In this document: piece after piece, positions 2,851-6,975 of the stretch
Layout of the letters: every line of letters begins with the position of its first letter
Numbering within the stretch: position 1 is the first letter of the stretch
NCBI GenBank assembly: GCA_003641675.1
Contig: QNBI01000103.1
Location: 1 to 7,060, forward strand
Reading direction: 5' to 3'
Length of the DNA stretch: 7,060 bases
DNA from: Spirochaetota bacterium
GTDB taxonomy: Bacteria; Spirochaetota; Spirochaetia; SZUA-6
Position numbers and translations under genes: made by a program
Notes under the pieces: generated by a model
What the model was told of the DNA's origin: nothing
What the model saw: the letters and a program-made list of their open reading frames with translations, nothing else
Database searches by the model: none

Positions 2851-4539
2851 TTAAACCTTACTGTACTTGAGAAGGAGTTCCCGGGCATGATTTAAAGATG
2901 CATTGGTATTCGAATCCCCCGAAAGCATCCTTGCAATCTCCGTTACCCTTTTTTCATCCTTAACACACTCTACCGATGTAAGTGTTCTCCCCTGCTCTTC
3001 ATGTTTCTTCACTATTATATGATTATCGGCCTGAACAGCAATCGTAGCAAGATGCGTAATACAAATAACCTGTTTTGACTTTGAAAGGTTAGTTAGTTTT
3101 CCTCCTACGGCAATTGCAACCTGTCCTCCTATGCCAACGTCAATTTCATCAAAAATAAGGGTATCAATACTGTCCGAAGAAGAAAGCACAGATTTTATCG
3201 CAAGCATAACCCTGGAAAGTTCTCCTCCGGATGCTATGCTCCGCAATTTTTTATACGGCTCTCCCTGGTTCGGGGCTATGACAAACTCAATATAATCCTT
3301 TCCTAGACTACCGATAACAGGTTTTCCGGAATCCCCCTTTTTTTCTTCTATATGAACCCGAAATCTCGCTTTTTCCATTCCAAGGTTCTTTAGCTCGCTC
3401 TCTATTTTAGTCTCGAGTGCATTGCCTGCAGTCCGCCTTTTTTCCGATAGAACCTGAGCCTGTGCTCTAACTTCTTTTTCATATTTTTTAATTTCTACTT
3501 CCAGTTTATGTCTTTCATTCTCCCAGTTGGAAAGACGTTCCAGGTCCTCTTCGCATTTACTTAAATATTCAAGTATTTCATCTATACTGTTGCCGTATTT
3601 GGATTCCAGCATCCGAATTACCGAAAGACGTTCTTCTACCACAGCCATTCTTTCAGGATCGAATTCTATGCTGTTCTGGTATTTCCGGAGTTCATCACTA
3701 ATTTCCTCAACTGCATAAAACGAATTCTCCAGTTCCTGTACAAGGCTTGCCATTTTTGGATTAATCCGTACAACCTGGTCAAGAGCATTCCTTGCATTCC
3801 GCATATAAGAAAGCGCACCTCCTCTGCTTTCAGCTGTATTACTATATGCATTTTCAAGTAATTCGAAAAGTTTCTCATAATTGGAAAGGATTTTAAACTC
3901 CTCCTCTAATTCCTCCTCTTCCCCGGGGTGAAGATCCACGTTTTTTATTTCGGTAATCGAGTATTTCAGTATATCAATTTCCCGGTTTCTCTGTTTTTCA
4001 TCGTTTACCAGTTTATTAAAACTCTCCTTCATCTCAGATAATTTTTTAAATAGCTCATGAAATCTTTTCGCTAATATTTCCGTTCCTCCGTACCTGTCCA
4101 GAAGCTTCCGGTGATTATCCAGGTTTAAAAGTGACTGATGTTCATGCTGTCCGTGAATATCAAACAAAAAAGAGGCAAGCTCGTTTAGTTCCGCTCTTGT
4201 TACAGGCACAGATTGAATAAAAATGGTACTCCTGCCGTTTTTCTTAACAGTTCTGCGTACAATTAAAGTATTATCATCAGGGCTAATTCCGTGTTCGCCC
4301 AGCCATTTATTTATTTCTTCATTATTGTTTAGGGTAATTACACATGATACCAACGTCTCTTCTGCCCCTGAACGGATCATAGAAGAATCCGCCTTCGAGC
4401 CAAGAAGAAGGCCGAGAGCCCCTATAAGAATAGATTTTCCAGCGCCTGTTTCACCCGTTAACACATTAAAACCTGCTGTAAAATCAACGGTAAGTCTGTC
4501 AATAAGAGCATAGTTATTTACAGAAAGGCTGTTAAGCAT
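2851..4539 (-). CDS. recN: DNA repair protein RecN
   Basis: RecN is an SMC-like ATPase that acts in the cytoplasm on DNA double-strand breaks, supporting RecA-dependent recombination. The 562-residue length is normal. The N-terminal head has MLNSLSVNNYALID (1-14) and Walker A GETGAGKS (29-36), followed by the RecN-typical DIHGQHEHQSLL (127-138). A coiled-coil arm rich in Glu, Lys and Leu spans roughly 155-400. The C-terminal head has the ABC signature SGGELSR (437-443), Walker B LIFDEID (461-467) and the H-loop His496. After the H-loop His this protein reads THLATIA where many RecN have THLPQIA. The ATG at 4539 lies inside the end of nadK, with a GGGGGAG purine run just upstream, and matches the usual family N-terminus. 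No obvious SOS box is visible, and the position after nadK suggests expression with it. Identification is secure. Confidence 0.97.
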   Translation of the reverse strand: MLNSLSVNNYALIDRLTVDFTAGFNVLTGETGAGKSILIGALGLLLGSKADSSMIRSGAEETLVSCVITLNNNEEINKWLGEHGISPDDNTLIVRRTVKKNGRSTIFIQSVPVTRAELNELASFLFDIHGQHEHQSLLNLDNHRKLLDRYGGTEILAKRFHELFKKLSEMKESFNKLVNDEKQRNREIDILKYSITEIKNVDLHPGEEEELEEEFKILSNYEKLFELLENAYSNTAESRGGALSYMRNARNALDQVVRINPKMASLVQELENSFYAVEEISDELRKYQNSIEFDPERMAVVEERLSVIRMLESKYGNSIDEILEYLSKCEEDLERLSNWENERHKLEVEIKKYEKEVRAQAQVLSEKRRTAGNALETKIESELKNLGMEKARFRVHIEEKKGDSGKPVIGSLGKDYIEFVIAPNQGEPYKKLRSIASGGELSRVMLAIKSVLSSSDSIDTLIFDEIDVGIGGQVAIAVGGKLTNLSKSKQVICITHLATIAVQADNHIIVKKHEEQGRTLTSVECVKDEKRVTEIARMLSGDSNTNASLNHARELLLKYSKV

Positions 4540-5407
4540 TAGGCTCCCCCGCCCAGTTCAGCTTTGTCCGTAAAACTTCATAAAAATTTCTTTTATCCGA
4601 TTGTATAATGAATGTTTTTTTGTCTGATTTCTTAAAAACTATTCTGTCTCCGGGTAGAAGGCGGAAAGAATCCTGCCCGTCTATAGACAGTATCACATCT
4701 GTTCTTTGAGGTTCCTCGACTTCTATTTCCATGATTTCCTTGCCGGGGAAGACAATAGGTCTATTGGAAAGGGTAAAGGGACATATAGGGTTCAAAATAA
4801 GCGCCTCCATCTCCGGGTGCAGTATGGGCCCTCCTGCAGCTACGGAATAAGCTGTAGAGCCGGTAGGAGTTGCAACAATAACCCCGTCCGCTCTGTAACG
4901 CCCGACATAGGTACCTGTAATATAAACCTTAAGCCGTATAATTCTCGAAATCCCCCCCGTTCCTATAACGCCGTCGTTTAAACCTAAATAGCAGGAAAGA
5001 GGTTTACCCTTTCTCTGCACGCATACTTCCAGCATCATTCTGCTGCTTATTTCAAGTCTGTTCTCTATATATTTATAATAGGCATCTTTCCATTCTGCCT
5101 TTGATATTTCTGTTATAAATCCGAAGTCTCCCAAATTTACCGCAAGAATAGGGATGTTTTTACCGGCAAGTATTCTTGCACAGTATAGTAAGGTCCCATC
5201 TCCCCCAAGTGATACCACGAGGTCCACACCGTTTAAATCCTTAGGTTTATTAAGCTGCCCACTCGGCTTTCCGTTTACCCGGTATAAAGAGTATTCCTTA
5301 CCTGCTTCTCTAAAAAAATCTGTAACTTCGTCTATAAAAAACCGGCCCTTATTTCTTTCCGCACCGGCAATAAGAAGAACCTTTTTAATATCCCTTTTTT
5401 GTTTCAT
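4532..5407 (-). CDS. nadK: NAD kinase (ATP/polyphosphate-dependent)
   Basis: NAD kinase phosphorylates NAD to NADP, the only route to NADP in most bacteria, and acts as a soluble cytoplasmic oligomer. The 291-residue length is typical. Clear signatures are the GGDGT motif (68-72) in VVSLGGDGTLL, the NE/D motif as N144-D145, the stretch YRADGVIVATPTGSTAYS (171-188) followed by AAGGPILHP (190-198), and ICPFTLSNRPIVFPG (208-222). The family commonly has His where Phe211 stands (PHSL/PHTL in many members), a small departure near the substrate site. The ATG at 5407 is directly preceded by an in-frame TAA, so the protein cannot begin earlier; there is no Shine-Dalgarno within 20 nt, the nearest being AGGAG 28 nt away. 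The 3' end overlaps recN by 8 nt, suggesting translational coupling. Identification is very secure. Confidence 0.96.
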   Translation of the reverse strand: MKQKRDIKKVLLIAGAERNKGRFFIDEVTDFFREAGKEYSLYRVNGKPSGQLNKPKDLNGVDLVVSLGGDGTLLYCARILAGKNIPILAVNLGDFGFITEISKAEWKDAYYKYIENRLEISSRMMLEVCVQRKGKPLSCYLGLNDGVIGTGGISRIIRLKVYITGTYVGRYRADGVIVATPTGSTAYSVAAGGPILHPEMEALILNPICPFTLSNRPIVFPGKEIMEIEVEEPQRTDVILSIDGQDSFRLLPGDRIVFKKSDKKTFIIQSDKRNFYEVLRTKLNWAGEPNA

Positions 5408-5452: not shown

Positions 5453-6478
5453 TTAAGGCAGTGTCGCAATAACACGGGCTATTTTTTCAACATTACCCTT
5501 TGCAAGAAGCGGATACAATGGAAATAGAAGCGTTCTTAAACTCAAATTTGCGGCATTCGGAAACGAATTCTTAAAACCGTCAAAATCATTTATTATTGAA
5601 TTTTTAAATGCAGACGCTGTTTCTATATTATGTTTTTTTATATATTTCTCGGCCTCGGGCACACTATCCGAAATTATAACAGGGAAAGCATAACGAATAA
5701 TTTTATGATTAACTTCCTCTATAAATTGCTTATGTCTTGTTTTACCCACTGCTTCTTTATATATTTCCGTTATCTTCTCCCGCACTTCTACGTCTTCACG
5801 TATATATTTAAATTGAGACAGTGCGAGGGAGGCATTTAGATCGGGAAGCTTTGAATATTCCCTGTGTTCATTCACCCTTCTCTTTAGCTCCCGGAGCAAC
5901 TTTCTGTTCCCAGTTAAAACCAAAGCTCCGCACCCGCAGCTTAGTGCATTGTTTTCCTCAAGAGAAAGAATCGCTATATCTCCAAAACTTCCGGCAAGTT
6001 TCTCTCCGATTCTGCCGCCCAGCCCCTGTGAAATATCTTCAATAACAGGAATACCGTAGTTTGCTGTACTTTCGATATCCGCCATACTGCCAAGGGTATG
6101 ATGAAGGATAATTAATTTGGGGCTATTAGACATAACGGTTTCCAGCATTTCTGAGGATACAGATGCCGAATTCGGAGCAACATCCACGTACAGCGGACGA
6201 ATACCCAAAGCCTTAATAACTTCCAGATAAACAGAAGGTACAAGGGGGGAAACGATTATCTTATCTCCGTTTTTAATTTCCAGGGATTCCAATGCCAGTT
6301 TTATCGCAGAAAAATAACTGTTGACAGCCACACCGCCTTCAGCTCCAATATAGCTTGAAACTGCAGCGGATAGTTCATTTCCCAATTTCCCGGGACCTAT
6401 ACTGTCGGCAACCAGGCAATCCAGAACACTGTGCATTTCTGCTCTTTTTATTGTAGGTCTAAATAGAGGAACTGCCAT
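5453..6478 (-). CDS. DegT/DnrJ/EryC1-family aminotransferase-like protein lacking the PLP lysine
   Basis: This 341-residue protein has the fold signatures of the DegT/DnrJ/EryC1/StrS family, PLP enzymes that usually aminate nucleotide-linked keto sugars for surface polysaccharides. Visible landmarks are the N-terminal VPLFRPTI (3-10), the helix after AVN (51-63), GDKIIVSP (71-78), the LYVDV strand (96-100), PVIEDISQGLGG (144-155) with the cofactor-ring Asp (D148) and Gln (Q151), and SFGDIAILSL (164-173). Aligning this last block to the family pattern SF-x3-K-x4-GEGG places Asn177 at the Schiff-base lysine and turns GEGG into GCGA (182-185). The Gly-Thr that binds the PLP phosphate is replaced by Tyr55-Phe56. 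The protein is also slightly shorter than the usual 360-400 residues. I infer a non-catalytic or differently acting relative. The ATG at 6478 has AGGA six bases upstream. It lies between cheW and nadK. The family is fairly secure; the function is unknown. Confidence 0.85.
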   Translation of the reverse strand: MAVPLFRPTIKRAEMHSVLDCLVADSIGPGKLGNELSAAVSSYIGAEGGVAVNSYFSAIKLALESLEIKNGDKIIVSPLVPSVYLEVIKALGIRPLYVDVAPNSASVSSEMLETVMSNSPKLIILHHTLGSMADIESTANYGIPVIEDISQGLGGRIGEKLAGSFGDIAILSLEENNALSCGCGALVLTGNRKLLRELKRRVNEHREYSKLPDLNASLALSQFKYIREDVEVREKITEIYKEAVGKTRHKQFIEEVNHKIIRYAFPVIISDSVPEAEKYIKKHNIETASAFKNSIINDFDGFKNSFPNAANLSLRTLLFPLYPLLAKGNVEKIARVIATLP

Positions 6479-6495: not shown

Positions 6496-6975
6496 CTATT
6501 CTGAAATACTATGCAACTGCTGCAGTTCCGTTTTACTAAAGAGGCGCTTAATATCAAGAATAATTAAATATCCCTCTTCATTATTTACAACGCCGTCTAT
6601 ATATTCTGCACCAATACCTGAAATAATCTGCGGGGGCGGTTTAATAGTTCCTGTTTCAACTGAAATTACACGGGATACCCTGTCAATTATTATTCCTATT
6701 AACTTATCGTTAATATTTATTACAATAATACCTCTTAATAGTTTTTCATTCTCATCTGTATCTAATTTTTTCAAGTTAAACCGCCTGTGAAGATTAATGA
6801 TCGGAATTATAGTTCCTCTAAGATTTAAAATTCCAGAGACATATGGAGGAGCACCGGGTATTGCCCTAATTTCCTGTATTTTAACTATTTCCTTTACATC
6901 CATTATATCGATTCCGTAAGTTTCCTGTCCCAGCTTAAAAGTTACAAGTTGAATCTCGTTATTCGAATCGCTCAT
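6496..6975 (-). CDS. cheW: CheW-type chemotaxis coupling protein
   Basis: This 159-residue protein has the length and layout of a single-domain CheW, the cytoplasmic adaptor that links the histidine kinase CheA to chemoreceptors in polar arrays. Recognisable stretches are the opening strand with QLVTFKLGQETYGIDI (9-24), the VKEIVKI segment (27-33), the family hallmark VSGILNLRGTIIPIINL (46-62) with the conserved Arg in NLRG (R53), the GIIIDRVSRVISV strand (94-106) and the closing GYLIILDIKRLF (135-146). There is no fused receiver or kinase domain. The ATG at 6975 is supported by an AAGGAGG site. The following aminotransferase-like gene starts 17 nt after its TAG stop, so the two are probably co-transcribed. 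No cheA, cheY or receptor gene is in the window, so this may be one of several CheW paralogues. Family assignment is very secure; which receptors it serves is unknown. Confidence 0.96.
   Translation of the reverse strand: MSDSNNEIQLVTFKLGQETYGIDIMDVKEIVKIQEIRAIPGAPPYVSGILNLRGTIIPIINLHRRFNLKKLDTDENEKLLRGIIVININDKLIGIIIDRVSRVISVETGTIKPPPQIISGIGAEYIDGVVNNEEGYLIILDIKRLFSKTELQQLHSISE

Follow-up and report, generated by a model that had tools for sequence, protein, structure and literature searches.

The DegT-type gene of the window

The window analyzed here is a stretch of 7,060 nucleotides from a Spirochaetota bacterium (contig QNBI01000103.1 of assembly GCA_003641675.1), and our subject is a gene on its minus strand, at 5453..6478, whose product resembles the DegT-type sugar aminotransferases and lacks their catalytic lysine. 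The gene opens with an ATG behind AGGAAAAATT, encodes 341 amino acids ending in ...ATLP, and, as the first-pass annotation of this DNA had stated, is unbroken. On the same strand, cheW (6496..6975) lies 17 bp upstream as a separate gene, with no CheW fusion, and nadK (4532..5407), which encodes NAD kinase, lies 45 bp downstream and overlaps recN (2851..4539) by 8 bp.

The window protein matches the Pfam family DegT_DnrJ_EryC1 (PF01041) over nearly its full length (E = 1.2e-39, 137 bits against a cut-off of 19.8), and its AlphaFold2 model (predicted local distance difference test score of 94.4) predicts a fold of the sugar-modifying aminotransferase type. The whole predicted fold is close to that of ArnB (1mdo, 4oca; template modeling score of 0.91), with which the protein also shares its Pfam family, Asp148, Ser172, and an LPDLNAA motif. 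In a second structure comparison, the best Z score (42.2) fell to GDP-perosamine synthase and SpsC/PseC-type DegT enzymes, and several of the nearest Lys-bearing relatives are named perosamine synthetase. Where the databases name DegT-type relatives, the names are all aminotransferase, transaminase, or perosamine synthetase. The window protein scores 100.9 bits against the curated ArnB model, whose cut-off is 631, and reaches no cut-off among the NCBIfam LegC, PseC, ArnB, RfbH, and WecE-type models (best, 109.3 bits versus 420). Judged by its sequence, the protein belongs to the DegT family but not to the sugar aminotransferases, as it is without the lysine that defines them.

The Schiff-base lysine position

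Codon 177 (AAT, 5948..5950, minus strand) places an asparagine where the Schiff-base lysine for pyridoxal 5'-phosphate (PLP) is expected, Lys188 in ArnB. The first-pass annotation had made this assignment, and it holds. Asn177 falls on the catalytic lysine without a gap in two of three HMMER alignments (7b0m and ArnB, 1mdo), and a profile of 111 relatives likewise puts ArnB Lys188 on column 177. The third alignment, to 7b0d, has a one-residue gap exactly at the lysine, and 7b0d has one extra residue before its Gly-Gly. Residue 176 is asparagine as well (AAC), again as annotated. In the predicted structure, residue 177 sits between strands 168–172 and 185–189, and because Lys193 and Lys199 sit in helix 192–204, no other lysine fills the site. 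The predicted secondary structure and the profile alignment thus dispose of the possibility, raised earlier, that a lysine of the 191–199 region occupies the internal aldimine position.

The alignment with spirochaete orthologues indicates that the loss is not peculiar to the window's genome. None of the 53 orthologues of a first set has lysine at column 177 (one row is gapped there); counted with the window, they have Gly in 22 rows, Asn in 13, Ser in 9, Asp in 7, and His and Ala in 1 each. Among 203 distinct sequences, which combine the first orthologues with named genomes and protein databases, the column holds Asp (105), Gly (36), Asn (29), Ser (13), Lys (8), His (6), Ala (4), Arg (1), and Met (1); treponemes, which mostly have Asp, are over-sampled in this set. 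As controls, lysine is present in all 120 relatives listed for a Lys-bearing spirochaete member (the best 120 of 2309 matches, 20 of which group with spirochaete sequences in a 322-row FastTree tree) and in seven of seven hand-picked DegT paralogues, one of them from the window's own genome. Since column 177 varies freely, the asparagine has no special meaning, and the earlier idea that it is a specific replacement comparable with the histidine of ColD and E1 is not supported.

ColD and E1/RfbH are 3-dehydratases that likewise have a DegT fold without the lysine; they carry a catalytic histidine at its place and bind pyridoxamine 5'-phosphate (PMP) (PMC8987622). Unlike in those enzymes, the position is unconserved in the window's branch, with asparagine in the window and histidine in only the 6 of 203 sequences counted above. 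A sugar enzyme that works with PMP in the manner of ColD/E1 would need another residue in the role of the histidine. The common fold and the retained Asp148 would allow this, as would several Lys-less members outside the window's class that keep most pocket features, but the lysine position is free to vary, and the window's class has lost the phosphate site, the partner loop, and the substrate residues; we find such an enzyme very improbable.

The first-pass annotation had also held that Asp148 (GAT, 6035..6037), the ring-nitrogen aspartate of the fold, and Gln151 (CAG) are kept. Both are present in the window; across the family the statement is correct for Asp148 (198 of 203 sequences) and fails for Gln151 (117 of 203).

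The remainder of the cofactor pocket

In the DegT family, Thr56, Ser172, a stacking aromatic residue, and a loop extending into the partner subunit bind the cofactor. We compared the pocket in 140 sequences of the window's class (class-type sequences) and in the 120 Lys-bearing relatives. Codons 55–57 (6308..6316) encode Tyr-Phe-Ser in place of the phosphate-site Gly-Thr-Ala/Ser of the relatives; Gly55 is found in 2 of 140 class-type sequences versus 120 of 120 relatives, and Phe56 stands where ArnB has the threonine of its SATAG motif. Codons 79–81 (6236..6244) encode Leu-Val-Pro in place of the aromatic residue, which is Tyr or Phe at position 79 in 119 of 120 relatives and Trp at position 81 in ArnB. 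Class-type sequences have Leu at 79 (138/140) and Pro at 81 (136/140, versus 15/120 in the relatives). The partner-subunit loop is replaced by a short one at codons 204–211 (5846..5869), with 6 residues between in 125 of 140 class-type sequences versus 13 in 118 of 120 relatives; by profile alignment it is 22 residues shorter than in ArnB. Ser172 (5963..5965), invariant in the relatives (120/120), remains in 73 of 140 class-type sequences. Substrate-site residues are gone as well (His5 in 0/140, Arg264 in 0/140, Pro294 in 1/140, and His296 in 2/140), so the window protein differs from GDP-perosamine synthase and the SpsC/PseC-type enzymes in this His/Arg/Pro-x-His set as it does in the lysine. 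Among the pocket residues compared, Asp148 alone stands (137/140). All six pocket features are present in 106 of the 120 relatives, whereas class-type sequences keep one, two, or three of them (53, 77, and 10 of 140, respectively); the window keeps two, Asp148 and Ser172.

In E1 and ColD, too, a loop reaches into the partner subunit (PMC8987622). The shortened loop bears on whether the window protein might be a non-catalytic subunit paired with an active DegT enzyme, much as yeast LCB1 (SPT1) pairs with LCB2. LCB1 is a Lys-less partner subunit of serine palmitoyltransferase, another fold-type I PLP enzyme (PMC6148460), and so offers a precedent for a relative that is kept without its lysine; Lys-bearing DegT paralogues do occur in the same genomes as the window's branch. 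LCB1 is, however, of another subfamily and a required partner of an active subunit, and here the very loop that would complete the partner's site is shortened, and none of the recurrent neighbor families listed looks like a DegT paralogue. We regard this pairing as scarcely credible.

The ratio of nonsynonymous to synonymous substitution rates (dN/dS) of the DegT-type gene is 0.039–0.201 in 11 of the 12 related-locus pairs compared, the twelfth pair being saturated. This is within the range found for nadK, recN, and cheW, although a single nadK pair, with very few changes, gives 0.802. These values rule out chance or decay as the cause of the lysine loss, in agreement with the first-pass proposal of a pseudo-enzyme under selection. 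The protein thus combines the two marks of a pseudoenzyme, a lost catalytic residue and a gene under purifying selection.

A shift of conservation toward the ends

Conservation is distributed differently in the two groups. In the relatives (59 sequences after thinning), 21 of the 30 most conserved columns lie in residues 31–205 and 3 in residues 246–341, whereas in the class-type set (94 after thinning) the corresponding numbers are 9 and 10, with 7 in residues 1–30. The mean entropy of residues 31–205 is much higher in the class type than in the relatives. Constraint has been gained at Arg12 (6443..6445; 118 of the 119 class-type sequences that reach the position), Asn215 (134/139), Arg315 (5534..5536; 130/139), Met15, Leu19, Val23, Ser77, Leu79, Pro81, Phe319, Leu321, FPLYP, and the C-terminal Leu-Pro of codons 340–341 (5456..5461; 132/139 and 136/138, respectively). 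Most class-type sequences also share His249 (5732..5734; 127/140). The final proline is found in 1 of the 120 Lys-bearing relatives and in 2 of 63 sequences from the wider phylum. At the level of sequence, the window's class has lost the lysine, the phosphate-site residues, the aromatic residue, the partner-subunit loop, and the substrate-site residues and has new conserved residues toward both ends.

One interpretation of these residues is a new, PLP-independent enzyme in which Asp148 and the gained Arg12, His249, and Arg315 make up a different active site. Purifying selection like that on the neighboring genes would be expected of such an enzyme, and the conserved residues include polar ones (Arg12, Arg315, Asp213, Asn215, and, nearly, His249). 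By position, however, the gained residues fall in the N-terminal segment and the small domain and not in the old pocket, and activity independent of both PLP and PMP is not known from any DegT enzyme, which leaves a new enzyme unlikely.

Distribution and history in Spirochaetota

A DegT-type match is present in 57 of 61 related genomes, the window's included, at E = 1e-3 and in 54 at 1e-20 or better. When 296 Spirochaetota genomes were searched with the family profile, 260 had matches at 1e-20, some of which may be ordinary DegT enzymes. In the 63 wider-phylum sequences, 62 from other classes plus locus L231, column 177 holds Met (16), Ser (10), Asp (8), Gly (8), Lys (6), His (5), Arg (4), Glu (3), and Asn, Cys, and Thr (1 each). 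Locus L231 comes from a genome of 1,139,633 bp and has the order cheW-DegT-nadK-recN with Asp at the lysine place.

In a tree of 99 picked rows, from which columns 174–178 were left out, the spirochaete rows form one clade with a support of 98 in the Shimodaira–Hasegawa-like approximate likelihood ratio test (SH-aLRT), with Lys-bearing lineages and a single Arg lineage diverging close to its base. Within it is a 70-row clade, 66 rows without lysine and 4 with it (SH-aLRT 98), and four changes are required in all. This favors, on sequence evidence, one loss of the lysine inside Spirochaetota, a single change to Arg, and at most two subsequent returns. The corresponding 192-row clade of the 322-row FastTree tree has a support of only 0.615; three rows are on long branches (S_L051, S_L052, and F_L226), and the basal forks are only partly settled.

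The Arg lineage (L151, L152, L199, L217, and L218) has arginine exactly at the lysine place in a block that otherwise looks canonical (SATRMITSGG). It may represent an intermediate stage, with PLP perhaps still bound. L229 and L230, which we take to be from Borrelia-type genomes, have adjoining cheW and nadK genes but no DegT-type gene, as if it had been lost cleanly in one lineage.

CheW and the gene neighborhood

The gene order of the window is widely kept. Among named loci with room, cheW is directly upstream of the DegT-type gene in 69 of 75, nadK is within 400 bp downstream in 70 of 78, and recN follows in 64 of 68; over 134 loci, duplicates and CheW-less genomes included, the counts are 100/123, 116/129, and 97/106, respectively. 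No upstream family besides cheW (49 of 69 loci) was found in more than 13 of these 69 loci.

With cheW so close, the window protein could sense a ligand in the cytoplasm and signal to the chemotaxis array through CheW. Spirochaetes offer a precedent in CheWS of Treponema denticola, in which an enzyme-like domain acts as a sensor linked to CheW (PMC10653840). The CheR-like domain of CheWS is fused and binds S-adenosylmethionine, whereas the DegT-type protein is separate and is kept even where CheW is missing. CheW (PF01584) is absent from 11 of the 61 genomes, and 9 of these keep the DegT-type gene; flagellin is also absent from 9 of the 11, and 7 of these 9 keep it (one genome, G053, is 74% complete, and in two, G006 and G011, the matches are partial). 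The gene is present in 45 of the 50 genomes with CheW. This lack of association rules out an obligate CheW partnership, and the special tie to the adjacent cheW that had been suggested for the window is not borne out. In six of the seven keepers without CheW and flagellin, nadK and recN follow the DegT-type gene, and the seventh locus, L054, ends at a contig edge. Furthermore, all cases of an adjoining cheW came from the clade without the lysine, and the Lys-bearing loci examined had none (2.5 kb or less of upstream sequence in most, none in L166). In the Lys-bearing locus L210, nadK-recN follows with one STAS-domain gene between, and no cheW lies in the 2.5 kb examined upstream; because nadK-recN is already in place there, cheW seems to be a later neighbor. 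A chemotaxis sensor is, in our view, quite unlikely.

In other classes, nadK and recN follow the DegT-type gene in four loci without cheW (L164, L167, L215, and L216) and in one with it (L157); apart from these and L210, no nadK was seen beside the gene elsewhere in the phylum. These four loci and L210 have a GlgC-like hexapeptide protein ahead of the DegT-type gene, and the four have a WecG-type glycosyltransferase there too (identified by a Pfam run on L164 and L210 and by BLAST cluster in the others). Such neighbors fit an origin in sugar metabolism.

Possible function of the Lys-less branch

We favor the reading, with a probability of roughly two in three, that the window protein is a pseudo-aminotransferase from a Lys-less DegT/ArnB branch found across the spirochaete phylum and that it likely acts, free of PLP, as a binding or regulatory protein and not as a transaminase. 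The starting point would be a catalytic sugar aminotransferase encoded beside nadK-recN, which lost its lysine once, in an ancestor within the phylum. The resulting protein would be free of PLP and probably still a homodimer like its relatives, and the newly conserved face of its N-terminal segment and small domain may hold a partner protein or an anionic ligand, such that its output would be regulation or scaffolding through contact. The gene order makes NAD kinase the leading candidate for a partner; against it, nadK is not adjacent in some members, and in Borrelia-type genomes it is present where the DegT-type gene is missing. The fullest version of this proposal is of an ancient and widespread spirochaete pseudo-transaminase in which one loss of the PLP lysine gave a PLP-free regulator, with the working surface moved to the N-terminal segment and small domain, a fixed Leu-Pro tail, and retention even in a 1.14-Mb genome. 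To that version we give even odds.

Several observations weigh against a PLP-free pseudo-aminotransferase. The ring-nitrogen Asp148 is kept in 98% of sequences, so a PLP-like ring might still bind, and Ser172 is present in the window. Lysine itself is found in a few rows (8 of 203; 7 of the 140 class-type sequences), although these seven are without Gly55, Thr/Ser56, the aromatic residue, and the long loop, have Ser172 in only two cases, and look like chance returns. Outside the window's class, 22 and 9 of 57 Lys-less members keep four or five of the six pocket features, respectively, and some may still hold PLP or PMP; for this reason, we limit the PLP-free argument to the window's class. For residues 246–341, the two sets hardly differ in mean entropy (2.12 and 2.17), and with that of residues 31–205 higher in the class type, we describe the shift as constraint lost in the old pocket (31–205) and gained at single sites at the ends. 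The Lys-bearing set was also gathered with a query that itself has the lysine, and its diversity is lower (mean identity of 49% versus 35%). Finally, L229 has cheW-nadK-recN and no DegT-type gene, so neither neighbor needs the protein there.

We found no paper or experiment on the Lys-less spirochaete DegT branch in the open-licence PubMed Central literature, nor any paper there on TP0440, the T. pallidum member. For T. denticola, TDE1588 was considered and ruled out, since a paper names it tryptophanyl-tRNA synthetase. If PLP-free pseudo-aminotransferases are indeed what these genes encode, the aminotransferase name that databases attach to a protein of most sampled spirochaete genomes is mistaken. 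Pathway reconstructions that rely on it for a sugar aminotransferase step would then be in error, and Spirochaetota would possess a conserved regulatory or scaffold protein that has escaped notice. The graded series from Lys-bearing through partly dismantled to fully dismantled class-type members would be material for studies of how an enzyme becomes a non-enzyme.

Other features of the locus and its relatives

In the GlgC-like proteins of L164 (377 amino acids) and L210 (383 amino acids), the hexapeptide part scores and the nucleotidyltransferase domain does not, and by sequence these neighbors may be pseudo-enzymes as well. As companions of the DegT-type gene (54 of 61 genomes), two neighbors from other classes, the GlgC-like protein (18 of 61) and a radical-SAM protein (43 of 61), were rejected on their unlike distributions. 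The radical-SAM gene is divergent and lies upstream of cheW in L157 and L153, and in the window's genome it is found at L248; it is missing from 10 of 11 CheW-less genomes and from 8 of 50 with CheW, which hints at a motility-linked role. In L053 and L054, from the CheW-less genomes G011 and G006, the DegT-type protein has a long low-complexity insert near residue 158. A 6-pyruvoyl-tetrahydropterin synthase/QueD-type gene follows the DegT-type gene in eight loci from other classes (L156, L158, L159, L160, L162, L209, L217, and L218). Behind recN in the window, again on the minus strand, are genes for a 278-amino acid protein (1997–2833) and a 357-amino acid protein (900–1973), neither with a Pfam family above cut-off. 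An M23 peptidase gene comes after these two, and the order cheW-DegT-nadK-recN-278aa-357aa-M23 is repeated in many related loci.
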